The position numbers and the translations under genes are program-made. A DNA stretch of 42,641 bases from an uncultured Bacilli bacterium (GTDB lineage Bacteria > Bacillota_I > Bacilli_A > RF39 > UBA660), in contig CALVVR010000009.1 in NCBI GenBank assembly GCA_944363915.1, positions 1 to 42,641 on the forward strand, written 5' to 3'. The first letter of the stretch is position 1, and each line of letters starts with the position of its first letter. The notes beneath the pieces are model-generated. The model was not told the origin of the DNA and did no database searches. It worked only from the letters and a program-made list of their open reading frames with translations. This document shows, piece by piece, positions 34,915-41,005 of this stretch.

Positions 34915-35265
34915 TTAATCTTTAGGTTTAAAAATAAGGGATAAAAAGAAAGAAAAAACAATTGCGGCAGTAATACCTGATGCCGTTAAATTAAACATAC
35001 CACTCATTAACCCCATAATGCCAACATCAACAGTAGTTGCCATCGCACCATGAATTAACAAGTGTCCAAAACTAGTAATTGGAACCATGGCTCCACCACC
35101 AGCCCATAAAATAATCTTATCATAAATACCAAAAACATCTAAAAAAGCTCCTAAAACAACAAAAATTGTAGTAATATGACCAGGGGTTAATTTAGTGTTA
35201 TCTAAAATTAATTGGGCTATTAAACATACTAAACCACAAAAGATAAAAGAATTTAAATAAATCAT
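34915..35265 (-). CDS. spoVAE: Stage V sporulation protein AE
   Basis: A 116-residue membrane protein (SpoVAEB type) with four hydrophobic segments. Signature text is KLTPGHITTIFVVLGAFLDVFG and GGGAMVPITSFGHLLIHGAM. With SpoVAC and SpoVAD it forms the spore channel for dipicolinic acid uptake and release. The ATG overlaps the spoVAD stop (ATGA). It is the last gene of the operon; spoVAF and gerA-like genes do not follow. Confidence 0.95.
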   Translation of the reverse strand: MIYLNSFIFCGLVCLIAQLILDNTKLTPGHITTIFVVLGAFLDVFGIYDKIILWAGGGAMVPITSFGHLLIHGAMATTVDVGIMGLMSGMFNLTASGITAAIVFSFFLSLIFKPKD

Positions 35266-36251
35266 TCAACCACCTCCAAACTAATAGCATGAGCAATAGC
35301 AGGAATTGTACTTTTATTATTAACCATAGTTGTATTCATTAAAGCACCAGTTGCTACTAATAAAACTCTTCTAATATCTTTTTTCTTCATTTGATCAAAT
35401 ATATAACCATATGTAACTAACGGTAAACAAGCTGGTCCACTAGCTCCCGCATAAACTGATTGATTTTCAACATCATAAATCATCGAGCCACAATCATCAT
35501 AATTTTTTAATTCAATGCTATATTCAGTTTGCATATAGTCTTTTAAAATGTCTTTACCATAAATACCTAAATCACCGGTTAAGATTAAATCATAATAACC
35601 AATTTCTCTTTTTGTTTCTCTTAAATGATCATAAATCGTTTTAGCAGCAGCTGGAGCCATAACAGCTCCCATATGATAAACATCGGTTATTCCTAAATCA
35701 ACTACCGTCCCTAAAGTAGCACTTTCAACTTTAATTCCTTTTTTATCTCTAGATAGATAAGCACTAGCTCCCCCTGTAGAAGTAAAAGTAGTTGTTTTTC
35801 TTTTAGGTCCGCCATATTCCACAGGATATCTAAATTGTTTTTCTGCCGCATTATTATGTGAAGAAGTAGATGTAACCGCATTTTTTACTTGTTTTGCTTC
35901 CACCATATTAGAAGCAATGATTAAACCCAAAACACTTGTTGAACAAGCACCATATATTCCTATTAAAGGTATTCCTAGACTAGATGCTGCATAATTAGTT
36001 GCGACAATTTGATTTAATAAATCTCCTGATATTAATACATCGACATCAAATTTAGTTATTTCTAATTTATTTAATAATATATCGATTGATTCTTCAATTA
36101 ATTTTACTTCTGCTAATTCCCAAGTTTTAGTTCCAAAATATAAATCATTATAACTTTTATCAAAATATTTAGATAATGGTCCTTTACTTTCATAAGGTCC
36201 GGTTATTGTAGATGTATCATTAATATAAACATTATTATATTTAAAAGTCAT
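35262..36251 (-). CDS. spoVAD: Stage V sporulation protein AD
   Basis: A 329-residue soluble protein with a thiolase-like fold that binds dipicolinic acid in the spore membrane complex. Conserved stretches are GPYESKGPLSKYFDKSYND near 18-36, GIPLIGIYGACSTS (the thiolase active-site-like Cys region), TTFTSTGGASAYLS, and YDDCGSMIYD near 235. The length is close to Bacillus (338). The ATG lies two bases after the spoVAC stop with ggagg. Stop TGA, overlapping spoVAE. Confidence 0.96.
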   Translation of the reverse strand: MTFKYNNVYINDTSTITGPYESKGPLSKYFDKSYNDLYFGTKTWELAEVKLIEESIDILLNKLEITKFDVDVLISGDLLNQIVATNYAASSLGIPLIGIYGACSTSVLGLIIASNMVEAKQVKNAVTSTSSHNNAAEKQFRYPVEYGGPKRKTTTFTSTGGASAYLSRDKKGIKVESATLGTVVDLGITDVYHMGAVMAPAAAKTIYDHLRETKREIGYYDLILTGDLGIYGKDILKDYMQTEYSIELKNYDDCGSMIYDVENQSVYAGASGPACLPLVTYGYIFDQMKKKDIRRVLLVATGALMNTTMVNNKSTIPAIAHAISLEVVE

Positions 36252-36252
36252 T

Positions 36253-36693
36253 TTATCCTCCCATAATTATTAATCTAAGTAAACCAAATATATAAGCACT
36301 AACCACACCAAAAATAATAACTGAACCAGCTAATTTAAACATGTTAGCACCGATTCCCGTAATGAAACCTTCTTTGCGATATTCTAAAGCAGCACTCATC
36401 ATAGCATGAGCAAATCCAGTTATTGGTATAATCAAACCACATCTTGTAATATGAACTAATTTATCAAAAAATCCTAAGCAAGTAAAAAGGCAACCTAAAA
36501 AAACTAAAGTCACAATCATCAACATAGCCGCATCGCTGGTTGAAATATTAAAAAAATAAGAATATACATCAATTAAACCTTGTCCTAGTACACCCATTAG
36601 TCCTCCTACTACAAAAGCAACAAGACCATTACATAAAATATTTTCTTTAGGTGTATGTTTCGCTACTAAGTTTTTATATTTATTTTTTTCCAT
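36253..36693 (-). CDS. spoVAC: Stage V sporulation protein AC
   Basis: A 146-residue membrane protein with three or four helices and the motifs VGGLMGVLGQG, GFFDKLVHITRCGLIIPITGFAHAM (a long conserved loop) and GFITGIGANMFKLAGSVI. In Bacillus it behaves as a mechanosensitive channel for dipicolinate release. The ATG at 36693 follows attaggaggaa. It is the first gene of the spoVA operon, behind a sigma-G-type promoter and separated from the sigma gene by a terminator. SpoVAA and SpoVAB, present in Bacillus, are absent here. Confidence 0.95.
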   Translation of the reverse strand: MEKNKYKNLVAKHTPKENILCNGLVAFVVGGLMGVLGQGLIDVYSYFFNISTSDAAMLMIVTLVFLGCLFTCLGFFDKLVHITRCGLIIPITGFAHAMMSAALEYRKEGFITGIGANMFKLAGSVIIFGVVSAYIFGLLRLIIMGG

Positions 36694-36742: not shown

Positions 36743-36767
36743 AAAACTAGTTTAGGCAACTAGTTTT
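36743..36767 (-). terminator. Terminator between the sigma gene and spoVAC
   Basis: Perfect 10-base arms AAAACTAGTT/AACTAGTTTT with a five-base loop and a T-run on the minus strand. It contains the sigma stop codon and abuts the -35 box of the spoVA promoter. Confidence 0.8.
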
Positions 36768-37399
36768 GATTTTAATTTGGTTAATATTTTTTGTTCGCCA
36801 CGTGAAACTTGTACTTGCGTCATACCTAATTCATTAGCTGTCTGTTGTTGGGTTAAGTCGTTCATATAACGTTTGACAATTATTTCTCTTTCAAATGGCG
36901 TTAAGTTAGTTAAAGCTTCTTTTAAAATTAATAAATCATCAATATTATCAGTTTTACCAATTGTATCTTGTAATGTCATTTCTTTACCCGCATCATTTAA
37001 TGGTTCATCAATACTATAAATTGGTCTAACGCTATTAATTGCTTCGGTAATCAAATGAAGTGGTAATTCTAAAAACTCTGCTAGTTCATCGTTAGTTGGT
37101 TCTCGCATTAATTTCTGATTTAAAATAATTCGGGCTTTTTCAATTTTTAAATTAAGTAATTGTATATTACGACTAACCTTAATACTTTTATCATTAGAAA
37201 CTAATTTTTTCATTTCACCTAAAATATAAGGATATGCATAAGTTGTGAATTTCACATTCATACTAGCATCATAATTTTTATAAGCCATAATCATTCCAAT
37301 ACATCCAGCTTGAAACAAATCTTCTTTATTAGAATACTTCTCAAAATACCTTGTAATCGAATAAATCAAATTTTTATTTTCAAGAATTAGTTCTTCCAT
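36752..37399 (-). CDS. Forespore-type sigma factor (SigF/SigG family)
   Basis: A 215-residue sigma-70 family protein. Region 2 has KEDLFQAGCIGMIMAYKNYD and FTTYAYPYILGEMKKLV; region 3 is KIEKARIILNQKLMREPT; region 4 is LTPFEREIIVKRYMNDLTQQ and GMTQVQVSRGEQKIL. It aligns with Bacillus SigF (255 residues) but lacks about the first 35 residues, beginning at the equivalent of its LIEKNMRLV. The site aggaggtttaa fixes the ATG. The upstream neighbour nine bases away is a SpoIIAA homologue and no spoIIAB lies between. The spoIIA-like order favours SigF; sequence alone cannot exclude SigG. A terminator overlaps its end. Confidence 0.85.
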   Translation of the reverse strand: MEELILENKNLIYSITRYFEKYSNKEDLFQAGCIGMIMAYKNYDASMNVKFTTYAYPYILGEMKKLVSNDKSIKVSRNIQLLNLKIEKARIILNQKLMREPTNDELAEFLELPLHLITEAINSVRPIYSIDEPLNDAGKEMTLQDTIGKTDNIDDLLILKEALTNLTPFEREIIVKRYMNDLTQQQTANELGMTQVQVSRGEQKILTKLKSKLVA

Positions 37400-37408
37400 T
37401 TAAACCTC

Positions 37409-37756
37409 CTATAAATTTATAATATTAATAGCACTTAATTCATCAGAAGCTTCATACATATATTTTAATAAACGACTATTATTAATTCGATGTTTAACTA
37501 AATTATTAGTTAAGCCACATAATAAACTTTTACCATGATTGTTTTTACATAATTCATAATTATTTAATAAGGTATTAATACCATAGCAGTCGATTGAATT
37601 TAATCCACTTATATTAAATACAGTATTTCTAATACCATTTTCTTCAACTAAATTATTTACTTCTTCTTTTAACTTAGAAACAGTATTTTTATTTAATACT
37701 CCATTTAATCTTATAAATAATATTCCTTTGAAAAACTCAATATTTATATCTAACAA
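37409..37756 (-). CDS. SpoIIAA-like STAS protein lacking the phospho-Ser
   Basis: A 115-residue single STAS domain. It aligns along its length with SpoIIAA (117 residues): LFIRLNGVLNKNTVSKLKEE, GIRNTVFNI, and HGKSLLCGL. At the regulatory site Bacillus has DSSG with Ser58 phosphorylated by SpoIIAB. Here the text is SIDCYGIN, so Cys57 replaces the Ser and Tyr the next residue. No spoIIAB gene follows. The likely start is TTG at 37756, after aaggtgatta. Canonically SpoIIAA frees SigF by binding the anti-sigma; here it may act constitutively, act redox-wise, or have another partner. It is the first gene of the operon, behind a Spo0A box. Confidence 0.8.
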   Translation of the reverse strand: MLDINIEFFKGILFIRLNGVLNKNTVSKLKEEVNNLVEENGIRNTVFNISGLNSIDCYGINTLLNNYELCKNNHGKSLLCGLTNNLVKHRINNSRLLKYMYEASDELSAINIINL

Positions 37757-37787
37757 GCTAATCACCTTCCATAATAATTTAGCACAT

Positions 37788-37817
37788 ATTTTAACTTTTT
37801 TATACCGATTCGACAAA
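37788..37817 (-). promoter_or_regulatory. Spo0A box and promoter of the spoIIA-like operon
   Basis: Minus strand TTTGTCGAA (37809-37817), identical to the Spo0A box TTTGTCRAA. It overlaps a -35-like TTGTCG (37811-37816), 17 bp before TAAAAT (37788-37793). The overlap resembles the sigma-A/Spo0A promoters spoIIG and spoIIE rather than the sigma-H spoIIA promoter of Bacillus. Confidence 0.7.
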
Positions 37818-37824
37818 ACTAGAC

Positions 37825-39717
37825 TTATTTTTTAAATTTTTGGTTTTTATAAATAATATAGATTAAAAATAGTAATAATAAAATAATTATAGTTATACCA
37901 AAAAGACGATTACCATTTATTTTTAAAATATAATTATTTAATTTGCTATTTAAATTTTCATTAACTTTTTGTTCGCTTTTTAAGGTGTTTAAACATTCAT
38001 TTTCTTGTTTTAATTTATTTTCTAATTCAGTAATTGTATTTTTGTATTCAGCAATCAAATTATTCTTATATGTTAAATTTTGATTTGCATTTTCATTTAA
38101 TAATTTTACATCTTCTCTTAATTCATCAATTTTCTGACGATAAAAATTATTAAGATTGATTAAATCAGAAACCTTATTGTTATATTCTATTAATACATCT
38201 TGATTTAAATTAAAAGAATTATTTTGCAATTGATTTATTTGTTCATTTAACTTACTAATTTTATTTTGTAATGATTCGTTATTTTGATTTAAATAAATTA
38301 TTTGATCAGACTTGTCATTTAATTTAACCTGCAAAGCATTGATTTCATCAATCAAATTAAGCAACGACTCTTCTTGATTTTTAATTATTAATTCTTTTTC
38401 TTCTAATTTTTTTTGTAAACAGTCATTATCTAATTGACATTTAGCTAATTTAGTTTCTAAATTATTTAGTTGTTCTTCATAATCTTTTTGTCTTTCTAAT
38501 AATTCTTCCTGTAGATTAGATAACTGTTTTTTTAAATCAAATATTTCTTTTTCTAAGTCAACAATTGTATTAGCAGCAATATTTAACGTTACATTTTTAG
38601 TTACTTCTAAATCATTTAGCGTAAAAACAATTTCATAGTTGCCATTTTTATTCCAGTCAATATTACTTTTTATCAAAACTTTATCAGTACTATTAATAAC
38701 AAAATTATTTAAATCAAAATCTTTATCTGTTATATCATGAATATCAATTTCTAATTTATCACGATTTCGATATCGATAAAATGTTTTTTTGCTATTATCA
38801 TCACGATAAATATAATCATCGATAGATGAAACAGTATACTCAGAATAATATTCCTTTTCATTTTGATAAACCTTACACCACTTTTCCTGATAACGATATT
38901 GTATAGTAGTTTTGGTATCAACGATACTATCATCATTGCTTACCTCATATGATGTTTCATTAGTTGTCCATTCTTCAAGAGCAATATTTAAATCGGTCAC
39001 TTTTTTAACAACTTTTAAAGCATTATCCCAATATTCATCAGCAAAATCTAAGATATATCCTTGGGCGATGAAGATATCTTTTTTATCTTTGGAATAGCCA
39101 ATTGTATAAAGTTTCTCACTTGGACCTAAATCAAAAATATAAAAAATAACTTCGATTTGATTAAGAGGATATTCTTTCCCTAAATCGATAATTAAAGATC
39201 CGCCATTATTTATATAGGATTTATTTTCGTCATATATTCCATTATTGATGTAATCATCAAAACCAGAAAGGCAACCATTACAGGTGTAGTCATAATCGAT
39301 TTCTTTATTATTAACTTTAATTGTTAATTCGGTCATCCTAAAAGCACCATAACTACCTTGTAAATTATATAGATGAATATATCTAACTGATTTGGCTTTA
39401 GTATATTGATATTTATTTCTTGTCTCATAAATATATCCAGGATTATCTATTTTTTCATTCTGCCAATTTGAATAACTAGTGAAATAACAATCATCACTAA
39501 AATTATCTTCTAAATTATAAAGTTGATATTCACCTAAAACTTGGTTATTTTTATACCAAAGATATCTTTCTTCCGTATCAACATCAATAATATCAGAATT
39601 AAGAACTTCCTCTTGTTGAAATTCACTATAATCCGAATAATTAGAATAATAAACTTCTTTTGCTTCAACCTTAATACCTAAAACTAATAAAAATATTAAC
39701 CATAAAATTTTTTTCAT
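37825..39717 (-). CDS. Large surface protein: beta domain, aromatic module, coiled coil, C-terminal membrane anchor
   Basis: A 630-residue exported protein, not recognised. It has a signal peptide (1-19) and a Tyr-rich segment. A possible galactose-binding-like (F5/8 C-type) domain at about 105-220 has SVRYIHLYNL, RMTELTIKVNNKEID and SLIIDLGKEYPLNQIEVI. An aromatic module at 271-307 (TIQYRYQEKWCKVYQ, EYYSEY) resembles the repeats of the protein at 32885-34156. A short Ig-like stretch (about 322-383) precedes a long coiled coil (about 385-600, heptads of Leu/Ile/Asn/Glu). A final helix (about 605-622) carries a basic tail. The layout is that of a stalked surface receptor or wall spacer. The ATG has aggaggtgaa. 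The spoIIA promoter begins just beyond its stop. Confidence 0.65.
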   Translation of the reverse strand: MKKILWLIFLLVLGIKVEAKEVYYSNYSDYSEFQQEEVLNSDIIDVDTEERYLWYKNNQVLGEYQLYNLEDNFSDDCYFTSYSNWQNEKIDNPGYIYETRNKYQYTKAKSVRYIHLYNLQGSYGAFRMTELTIKVNNKEIDYDYTCNGCLSGFDDYINNGIYDENKSYINNGGSLIIDLGKEYPLNQIEVIFYIFDLGPSEKLYTIGYSKDKKDIFIAQGYILDFADEYWDNALKVVKKVTDLNIALEEWTTNETSYEVSNDDSIVDTKTTIQYRYQEKWCKVYQNEKEYYSEYTVSSIDDYIYRDDNSKKTFYRYRNRDKLEIDIHDITDKDFDLNNFVINSTDKVLIKSNIDWNKNGNYEIVFTLNDLEVTKNVTLNIAANTIVDLEKEIFDLKKQLSNLQEELLERQKDYEEQLNNLETKLAKCQLDNDCLQKKLEEKELIIKNQEESLLNLIDEINALQVKLNDKSDQIIYLNQNNESLQNKISKLNEQINQLQNNSFNLNQDVLIEYNNKVSDLINLNNFYRQKIDELREDVKLLNENANQNLTYKNNLIAEYKNTITELENKLKQENECLNTLKSEQKVNENLNSKLNNYILKINGNRLFGITIIILLLLFLIYIIYKNQKFKK

Positions 39718-39873: not shown

Positions 39874-40470
39874 TCATTCAAATTTAGTATCAAATTTAAT
39901 GATAGCATTAAGATCATTAATTTCAATCTGGCTATCTTGTGAAACAAATCTAAAAGCATAACCATATTTATCGTTTGGCTCGAAATTATCTAACTCTTCA
40001 TCAGTAAATAATCCAATTATAACAGTATCAAATTCATCAGTTAATAAGTAAACATCATAACCTTCATTAGATAATCTTTGATATTCTTCTACTATTTCAT
40101 CTTTTGTTATTTCCCTATAATCATTATTAAATTCAGAAAAAAGGTGGATAATAAGTAAATATTTAACATTTTGACTAGCATAATATTCTCGTGCTTCTAT
40201 TACATCATTAAAGCAATAAAATTGACCATTTTTAGGAGCTAAATACATATGAATTACATTAGTTGGATATCCAGTTATTATTTTTGGGTAATTTTCTTTA
40301 AGTGTTTTGTCATTTAAATCACTTTTATTGAATAGTAACATTTGAAAGACAAAAGTTAATAAGAAAATACTAATAATCGAGGTAATAAAATATGTAATTT
40401 TTCTTCTTTTTTGGTTATGTTTTTTTATTCGTTCTAACGCACTATCAGCCATTTCTTTATAAGTCTTCAT
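39874..40470 (-). CDS. Putative anti-sigma factor for the adjacent ECF sigma
   Basis: A 198-residue protein with a 26-residue basic cytosolic start, one membrane helix (about 27-47) and an outside domain of about 150 residues, mixed alpha/beta. Sequence family not recognised; no zinc-binding HxxxCxxC is visible, so it is not a ZAS-type anti-sigma. The call rests on context: its start overlaps the sigma gene by 14 bases, and its topology (short cytosolic tail, single helix, sensor domain) suits an ECF partner. The ATG follows aaaaggagggg. The signal sensed is unknown. Confidence 0.55.
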   Translation of the reverse strand: MKTYKEMADSALERIKKHNQKRRKITYFITSIISIFLLTFVFQMLLFNKSDLNDKTLKENYPKIITGYPTNVIHMYLAPKNGQFYCFNDVIEAREYYASQNVKYLLIIHLFSEFNNDYREITKDEIVEEYQRLSNEGYDVYLLTDEFDTVIIGLFTDEELDNFEPNDKYGYAFRFVSQDSQIEINDLNAIIKFDTKFE

Positions 40471-41005
40471 AACTAAACCCCTCCTTTTCTAATTCTGATT
40501 TAAGTGATAATCTTGCTCGATAAACAAGGGTTTCTATATTATGAAGATTTTTTTTCATTATTTTAGCTATTTCTTTGTTTGTAAAGCCTTCAAAATAAGT
40601 AAGCCATAAGACTTGCTTATATTCTAATTTTAATTTTCGCATTACTTTATGAATAAGCAACTTGTTTTCTTCTTTTATATAAGATTGTTCAATTGATTCT
40701 TGTTCAAATATCATATTGTCATTAATTGGTATCTCTTTTGATTTAGATTTTTTCCTTAAATAGTCGATGGCAATATTTCTTCCGATTACATATAACCATG
40801 TTTTAAAAGATGATTTTTCAGTATTCCTAGGTTTTTTTATTCCTAACTTTACAAATGTATCTTCTGCCAATTCTTCAGCAATATGAATATTATTAGTAAA
40901 ATTATTTAAATAAATAATGAGACCATCTTTATATTCTTTTACAATTTCAATGAAAGCTTCATCATCACCAGCAAGATATCGGCGATAATTAATTGTACCA
41001 TTCAT
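40457..41005 (-). CDS. ECF sigma factor
   Basis: A 182-residue sigma factor with only regions 2 and 4. Region 2 has AEELAEDTFVKLGIKKPR and SFKTWLYVIGRNIAIDYLRK; region 4 has LEYKQVLWLTYFEGFTNKEI followed by AKIMKKNLHNIETLVYRAR. Region 1 and region 3 are absent, as expected for ECF proteins, which answer envelope or stress signals. The ATG at 41005 follows agaaaggaa. It is coupled to the downstream membrane protein. An inverted repeat upstream may be its own promoter. Confidence 0.92.
   Translation of the reverse strand: MNGTINYRRYLAGDDEAFIEIVKEYKDGLIIYLNNFTNNIHIAEELAEDTFVKLGIKKPRNTEKSSFKTWLYVIGRNIAIDYLRKKSKSKEIPINDNMIFEQESIEQSYIKEENKLLIHKVMRKLKLEYKQVLWLTYFEGFTNKEIAKIMKKNLHNIETLVYRARLSLKSELEKEGFSYEDL

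Follow-up and report, generated by a model that had tools for sequence, protein, structure and literature searches.

We propose that the spoIIA-spoVA operon of the bacterial order RF39 has come through a complete loss of sigma-F partner switching, and that it now probably works by Spo0A-driven synthesis of sigma-F together with a repurposed STAS protein descended from SpoIIAA; among the explanations considered, this one accounts best for the evidence below. The window, meaning the whole stretch of DNA analyzed, is a contig of 42,641 nucleotides from Candidatus Faecisoma, a genus of the order RF39 that corresponds to CAG-878 in GTDB (PMC8035907), and its genome is 1.14 Mb in size and ~92% complete. 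The family tested (f1) comprised 145 genomes from 144 genera, 113 of them of high quality. These genomes are drafts, almost all metagenome-assembled from uncultured gut bacteria, and their kinship makes them non-independent data points; RF39 endospores are predicted from genes.

The genes of the operon run in the order STAS, sigF, spoVAC, spoVAD, spoVAE on the minus strand of the window. The STAS-domain gene (37409..37756, 115 aa) lies upstream of sigF (36752..37399, 215 aa, ATG start), and the two are separated by 9 bases, which leaves no space for spoIIAB and bears out the earlier note, in which the anti-sigma kinase gene was described as physically absent from the locus. Downstream are spoVAC (36253..36693; TIGR02838 over cut-off, start at 36693 set by homology), spoVAD (35262..36251; PF07451 at 411 bits, NF006160 over cut-off), and a spoVAE of the spoVAEB type (34915..35265; TIGR02839 over cut-off), all on the same strand. 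The STAS reading frame extends at its longest over 37409-37816, so that its 5' part overlaps the promoter; because the conserved promoter occupies 37757-37820, the TTG at 37756, served by the Shine-Dalgarno sequence GGAAGGTGA, is almost certainly the true start. Chance or an assembly gap can be set aside as the source of this arrangement, since the same spoIIAB-less pair recurs in 103 of the 120 sigF-bearing family genomes; of the 80 named loci taken from GTDB genomes, 77-78 have it too. In one genus metK sits between STAS and sigF (L052 6266-8763, G018:C28), and in two other loci it lies just upstream of STAS (L025/L101). A sigma-K gene adjoins the STAS-sigF locus in several genera; it carries a pro-sequence and lies divergently just upstream (L075, L077, L088, L121, L129), forming a small sporulation cluster.

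Directly upstream of STAS in the window is a gene for a 630-aa surface protein (37825..39717, minus strand) with a signal peptide, a coiled coil, and a C-terminal membrane anchor, which is probably a neighbor with its own promoter, outside the switch. Among 75 loci, about half, from many genera, have a similar membrane-anchored frame that terminates 63-80 bp short of STAS, and the others lack it; the proteins of the window and of related loci share a YSDYS-type motif. Farther upstream, an ECF sigma factor gene of a SigM-like subfamily (40457-41005, minus strand) is overlapped by a downstream gene (39874-40470, minus strand) whose product has a predicted membrane segment and matches no family, and the two are likely to be an ECF sigma/anti-sigma pair.

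Sequence relationships identify the sigma factor of the window as sigma-F and not SigG. It scored 178.8 bits against TIGR02885 (sigF) versus 133 to 141 for the sigG models, with SigBFG/sigF as its best curated families, and its best match among solved structures was sigma-F in the SpoIIAB:sigma-F complex (1l0o). The score is below the TIGR02885 equivalog cut-off of 321.45 bits, and the protein is a divergent, short member of its family. Synteny with spoVA agrees with this identification, as does a separate full-length SigG, with region 1.2, on contig 31 of the same genome (L049). The earlier note had allowed that the sigma gene might be SigG and a full spoIIA operon might lie elsewhere; with a separate SigG present and no second spoIIA operon in the genome of the window, this turns out not to be the case.

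The sigma factor lacks region 1.2: 26 residues precede its D-L-F-Q anchor versus 46 in full-length sister sigF, a late start amounting to about 20-35 residues. The gene has a GGAGG Shine-Dalgarno sequence, and because an in-frame TAA directly precedes the ATG, the short N-terminus reported earlier is not a mis-called start. We rejected the shortening as an adaptation to SpoIIAB loss, however, since it is also present in sisters that have SpoIIAB: sister families f3, f5, f8, and f16, which keep both SpoIIAB and the Ser site, include sigF with 27-37 residues before D-L-x-Q (46 in f11 and f13), and the absence of region 1.2 is thus unconnected with that of the kinase. The earlier proposal that three changes together fit the loss of the switch thus holds for the missing kinase and the missing Ser, and fails for the short sigma factor.

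The STAS protein matches PF01740 (E 1e-13) and, over cut-off, TIGR00377, and it reaches 47 bits against the SpoIIAA equivalog TIGR02886, below the cut-off of 114.75. The solved structures closest to its profile are those of SpoIIAA (1tid/1th8/1auz, E ~3e-20), with the next STAS proteins at 4e-7, and STAS-like strands and helices are seen in an AlphaFold2 model. Structure matches, synteny, and modeled fold together establish it as a SpoIIAA descendant. In alignments its I-D-C-Y-G falls on D-S-S-G of SpoIIAA, which confirms the earlier placement of Cys57 (codon TGC, 37586..37588, minus strand) at the position of phospho-Ser58. The Ser site is intact as D-S-[SAT]-G in 30/30 sister operons that have SpoIIAB, whereas the Ser has been replaced throughout the family: the 81 RF39 alignment rows, which count one locus twice, hold Ile (25), Cys (14), Leu (14), Met (8), Gln (4), Val (3), Ser (3), Thr (1), or a further residue, Glu among them, at this position. 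Around it, the preceding Asp is kept in 80/81 rows and the following Gly in 81/81. By its sequence, the SpoIIAA descendant cannot accept a phosphate on Ser58.

The replacement pattern also bears on the earlier suggestion that cysteine chemistry, by redox or thiol modification of the STAS protein, takes the place of Ser phosphorylation. Cys57 is found in most members of the window's genus, as such a mechanism would have it, but Tyr stands in its place in one member and Asn in a second, and the relatives have mostly Ile, Leu, or Met, along with Val, Gln, and Glu. Because Cys is confined to a single genus (14/81 rows), we rejected it as a conserved functional residue and regard this mechanism as extremely improbable.

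Absence claims in this study rest on profile searches of the genomes, for which a B. subtilis positive control was matched for SpoIIAB, SpoIIE, SpoIIR, SpoIIGA, Spo0A, and Fin, and was not matched for Gin. With the SpoIIAB profile (TIGR01925), none of the 145 family genomes exceeded the cut-off of 135 bits. The top sub-threshold matches scored 30-49 bits and were almost all in frames of 300-700 aa, the size of histidine kinases; two matches to HATPases in short frames (G068:C10 and G156:C79; L050, L051) proved to be split histidine kinases and were rejected as SpoIIAB. The SpoIIE-type phosphatase domain (PF07228) was absent from 141/145 family genomes, including that of the window, so that profile searches located neither partner elsewhere in this genome and the loss of the kinase partner switch suggested in the earlier note is upheld. 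Three of the four domain matches (G161, G138, G166) were rejected as SpoIIE, being RsbU-type or hydrogenase-linked with none adjoining sigF, and the fourth (G092) was weak. The G138 phosphatase frame also matches a SpoIIAB-type ATPase profile, which suggests a phosphatase-kinase fusion. In two genera an RsbU-type phosphatase lies beside a STAS protein that keeps the Ser site (YISSAGLR; L053 4586-6780, L054 2261-5350).

Incomplete drafts could in principle hide a canonical partner switch whose SpoIIAB and SpoIIE are highly diverged or unassembled. We consider this very unlikely, because the 145 genomes that yielded no SpoIIAB include the 113 of high quality, the phospho-Ser and kinase-contact residues are gone from the STAS protein, and the same profile reaches 155-186 bits in sister families, where it exceeded the cut-off in 32/149 genomes of the rest of the class, all of them in other families. 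Eight sister families retain the full spoIIA operon with its Ser. On the profile evidence the kinase-phosphatase partner switch is absent across the order RF39, and the best reading of this distribution is that the common ancestor of RF39 had already lost partner switching.

Relative to the sisters, the RF39 STAS proteins have lost the columns corresponding to SpoIIAA Glu21, Asp23, Ser58, Ser59, Gly62, and the G-R-Y motif; Glu21 and Asp23 are conserved in 90% and 97% of sister SpoIIAA proteins, respectively. In the homologous RsbV-RsbW structure, Glu21 is described as clashing with the sigma factor, and RsbV contacts the kinase through Asp23 and Ser56 (PMC7340262), which indicates that the residues for SpoIIAB binding have been lost from the RF39 protein. 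Conserved columns were also gained (E7, F8, G11, K23/24, V33/34, G41/42, E68/69, Y99/100, and E102/103, in approximate numbering). Because E-F-x-K-G was part of the search pattern used to gather loci, its conservation is partly selection bias; E7 and G11 are invariant in an independently gathered set (A1). Within the genus, median dN/dS is 0.10 for STAS and 0.12 for sigF, so that purifying selection on the STAS gene is strong. Strong selection, lost SpoIIAB contacts, and newly conserved residues together imply a new partner of the STAS protein, and the pattern reads as that of a protein whose former partner is gone and which now serves a different one, rather than as that of a relic. A second, shorter STAS protein of ~80-105 aa occurs in several genomes (G018:C43, G033:C6:22235, G132:C4, G123:C9, G177:C11, G023:C30).

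Much of the early sporulation pathway persists around this altered core. sigF, in its short form, was found in 120/145 family genomes and a relative of the STAS gene in 110/145. Spo0A was present in 53/58 family genomes, the window's own among them, and SpoIIR and SpoIIGA in 51/58 each, with the same 7 genomes lacking both and the window's genome having both. The input of sigma-F (Spo0A) and its output (SpoIIR to SpoIIGA to sigma-E) are thus kept, and the switch between them is missing. These data weigh against the idea that the STAS-sigF locus is a relic in decay, left over in bacteria that have given up sporulation, an improbable one in our judgment: genomes of ~1.1 Mb and the 17/145 family genomes in which sigF and sigG are both missing would be compatible with it, but the dN/dS values near 0.1, the joint retention of SpoIIR, SpoIIGA, and Spo0A, and a promoter conserved across genera argue against it.

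That promoter lies between the upstream gene and STAS in the form TCTAGTTTTGTCGAAT...GTATAA...TGTGCTAAATTA. In the window, a predicted Spo0A box, TGTCGAA (37809..37815, minus strand), is found inside the conserved element TCTAGTTTTGTCGAAT, and a probable extended -10 element, TGCTAAATT, of the pattern TGnTAnAnT is at 37776..37784 on the same strand. An exact TGTCGAA stands 55-65 nt ahead of STAS in 67/80 family loci, where 1.6 would be expected (as background, 3.4% of windows of 150 nt from these loci contain it), and the shorter TGTCG precedes STAS in 79/80. TGnTAnAnT follows at a constant distance from the first T of the box, 30-31 nt, in 67/79 loci. This spacing would put the box at roughly -46 to -40, which, we infer, would suit the activation of a sigma-A promoter. 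In genera without STAS, TGTCGA stands directly 5' of sigF in about 11/15. The operon thus appears to carry an almost invariant Spo0A-box promoter, which would tie the synthesis of sigma-F to Spo0A and not, by itself, to the forespore: because expression under Spo0A~P before septation would fill both compartments, transcription alone is insufficient for forespore specificity. Promoter timing, one of the mechanisms put forward earlier, therefore gains support from the conserved box and does not provide compartment specificity on its own. Control by another anti-sigma factor, also put forward, did not hold for Fin, for which no match exceeded the cut-off in 98 genomes. The B. subtilis sigma-F promoter pattern was found 5' of spoIIR in 0/18 stretches, about half of them centered on spoIIR, and no Spo0A box was found upstream of spoIIGA of the window's genome within the stretch read.

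With the switch gone, the phosphorylation site lost, and the STAS protein conserved, the distinction between forespore and mother cell must come about in some other way. The chief competing possibility, which we view with some doubt, is that the STAS protein is itself the direct regulator and, with no kinase involved, acts as an anti-sigma factor or activator by binding to sigma-F or to the sigma-F holoenzyme. Its position immediately upstream of sigF in the same operon in the 103 genomes, its new conserved surface, and its strong purifying selection are what such a role would predict, and its presence goes together with that of the sporulation pathway (Fisher p 4.5e-4, in related and thus non-independent genomes). 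We know of no precedent, however, for a STAS domain acting as a direct anti-sigma factor. When STAS and sigma were modeled with AlphaFold2 as one artificial chain, with stop codons read through for docking only, both proteins folded (mean pLDDT 74) but were not docked with confidence (pTM 0.37, from a shallow alignment of 24), a result that weighs little either way. Moreover, sigF persists in ~15 genera without a recognizable STAS, as does SpoIIR in those of them that were sampled; because these genera dispense with it, the STAS protein is not the sole control in the order, nor is it strictly required for sigma-F.

In the explanation that we favor, sigma-F activity would be set mainly by the amount produced under Spo0A~P and no longer by freeing the protein from an anti-sigma kinase, and the STAS protein, now repurposed and freed of SpoIIAB, would have acquired another partner, for which sigma-F/RNA polymerase itself or a protein of the septum or forespore are candidates. 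It would then modulate sigma-F function without being strictly needed, and a forespore bias could arise from the timing of transcription, from trans-septal SpoIIR-SpoIIGA signaling, or through the newly acquired partner of STAS. Whether these elements (a former SpoIIAA whose phospho-site has been permanently replaced, its new binding surface, another partner for it, and control exerted directly by Spo0A) amount to an order-wide, kinase-independent restriction of sigma-F to the forespore is a proposition on which we consider the balance to be even.

Partner switching is the textbook account of how a genetically identical forespore diverges from the mother cell. An order in which sigma-F, SpoIIR, and SpoIIGA persist without the switch would mean either that forespore fate can be set without it or that evolution has found a second solution. 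The Ser-less STAS protein and the defined promoter are testable targets, and the RF39 STAS protein offers a clean natural case of a signaling domain that has lost its kinase and is still under selection. SpoIIAA, SpoIIAB, and SpoIIE have been listed as present in all spore-forming bacilli and clostridia sequenced by 2012 (Galperin 2012, PMC3533761, Table 3). For RF39, spores with markedly different regulation have been predicted and spoIIAB and spoIIE have been described as reduced or absent (Field et al. 2024, PMC10868615), in a text that does not use the names spoIIAA and sigF and leaves aside the STAS site and how far it is conserved, as well as the promoter of the operon and the N-terminus of the sigma factor. 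The reduction or absence of spoIIAB and spoIIE was thus already known, and what is new here is the family-wide replacement of the Ser site, the selection on STAS with its exchange of SpoIIAB-contact residues for other conserved ones, the Spo0A-box promoter, and the sigma shortening unrelated to the loss. The locus resembles the RsbV/RsbW/RsbU module in having a STAS protein beside a gene for a SigB/F/G-family sigma factor, but it has neither RsbW nor RsbU, and the structures closest to its STAS protein are by far those of SpoIIAA, not RsbV. With the spoIIA-spoVA arrangement of B. subtilis and the sister families it shares STAS, sigF, the order spoVAC-D-E, the Spo0A box, and the SpoIIR-SpoIIGA pathway, whereas it differs from their partner switch in lacking SpoIIAB, SpoIIE, the phospho-Ser, and the residues that contact the kinase.
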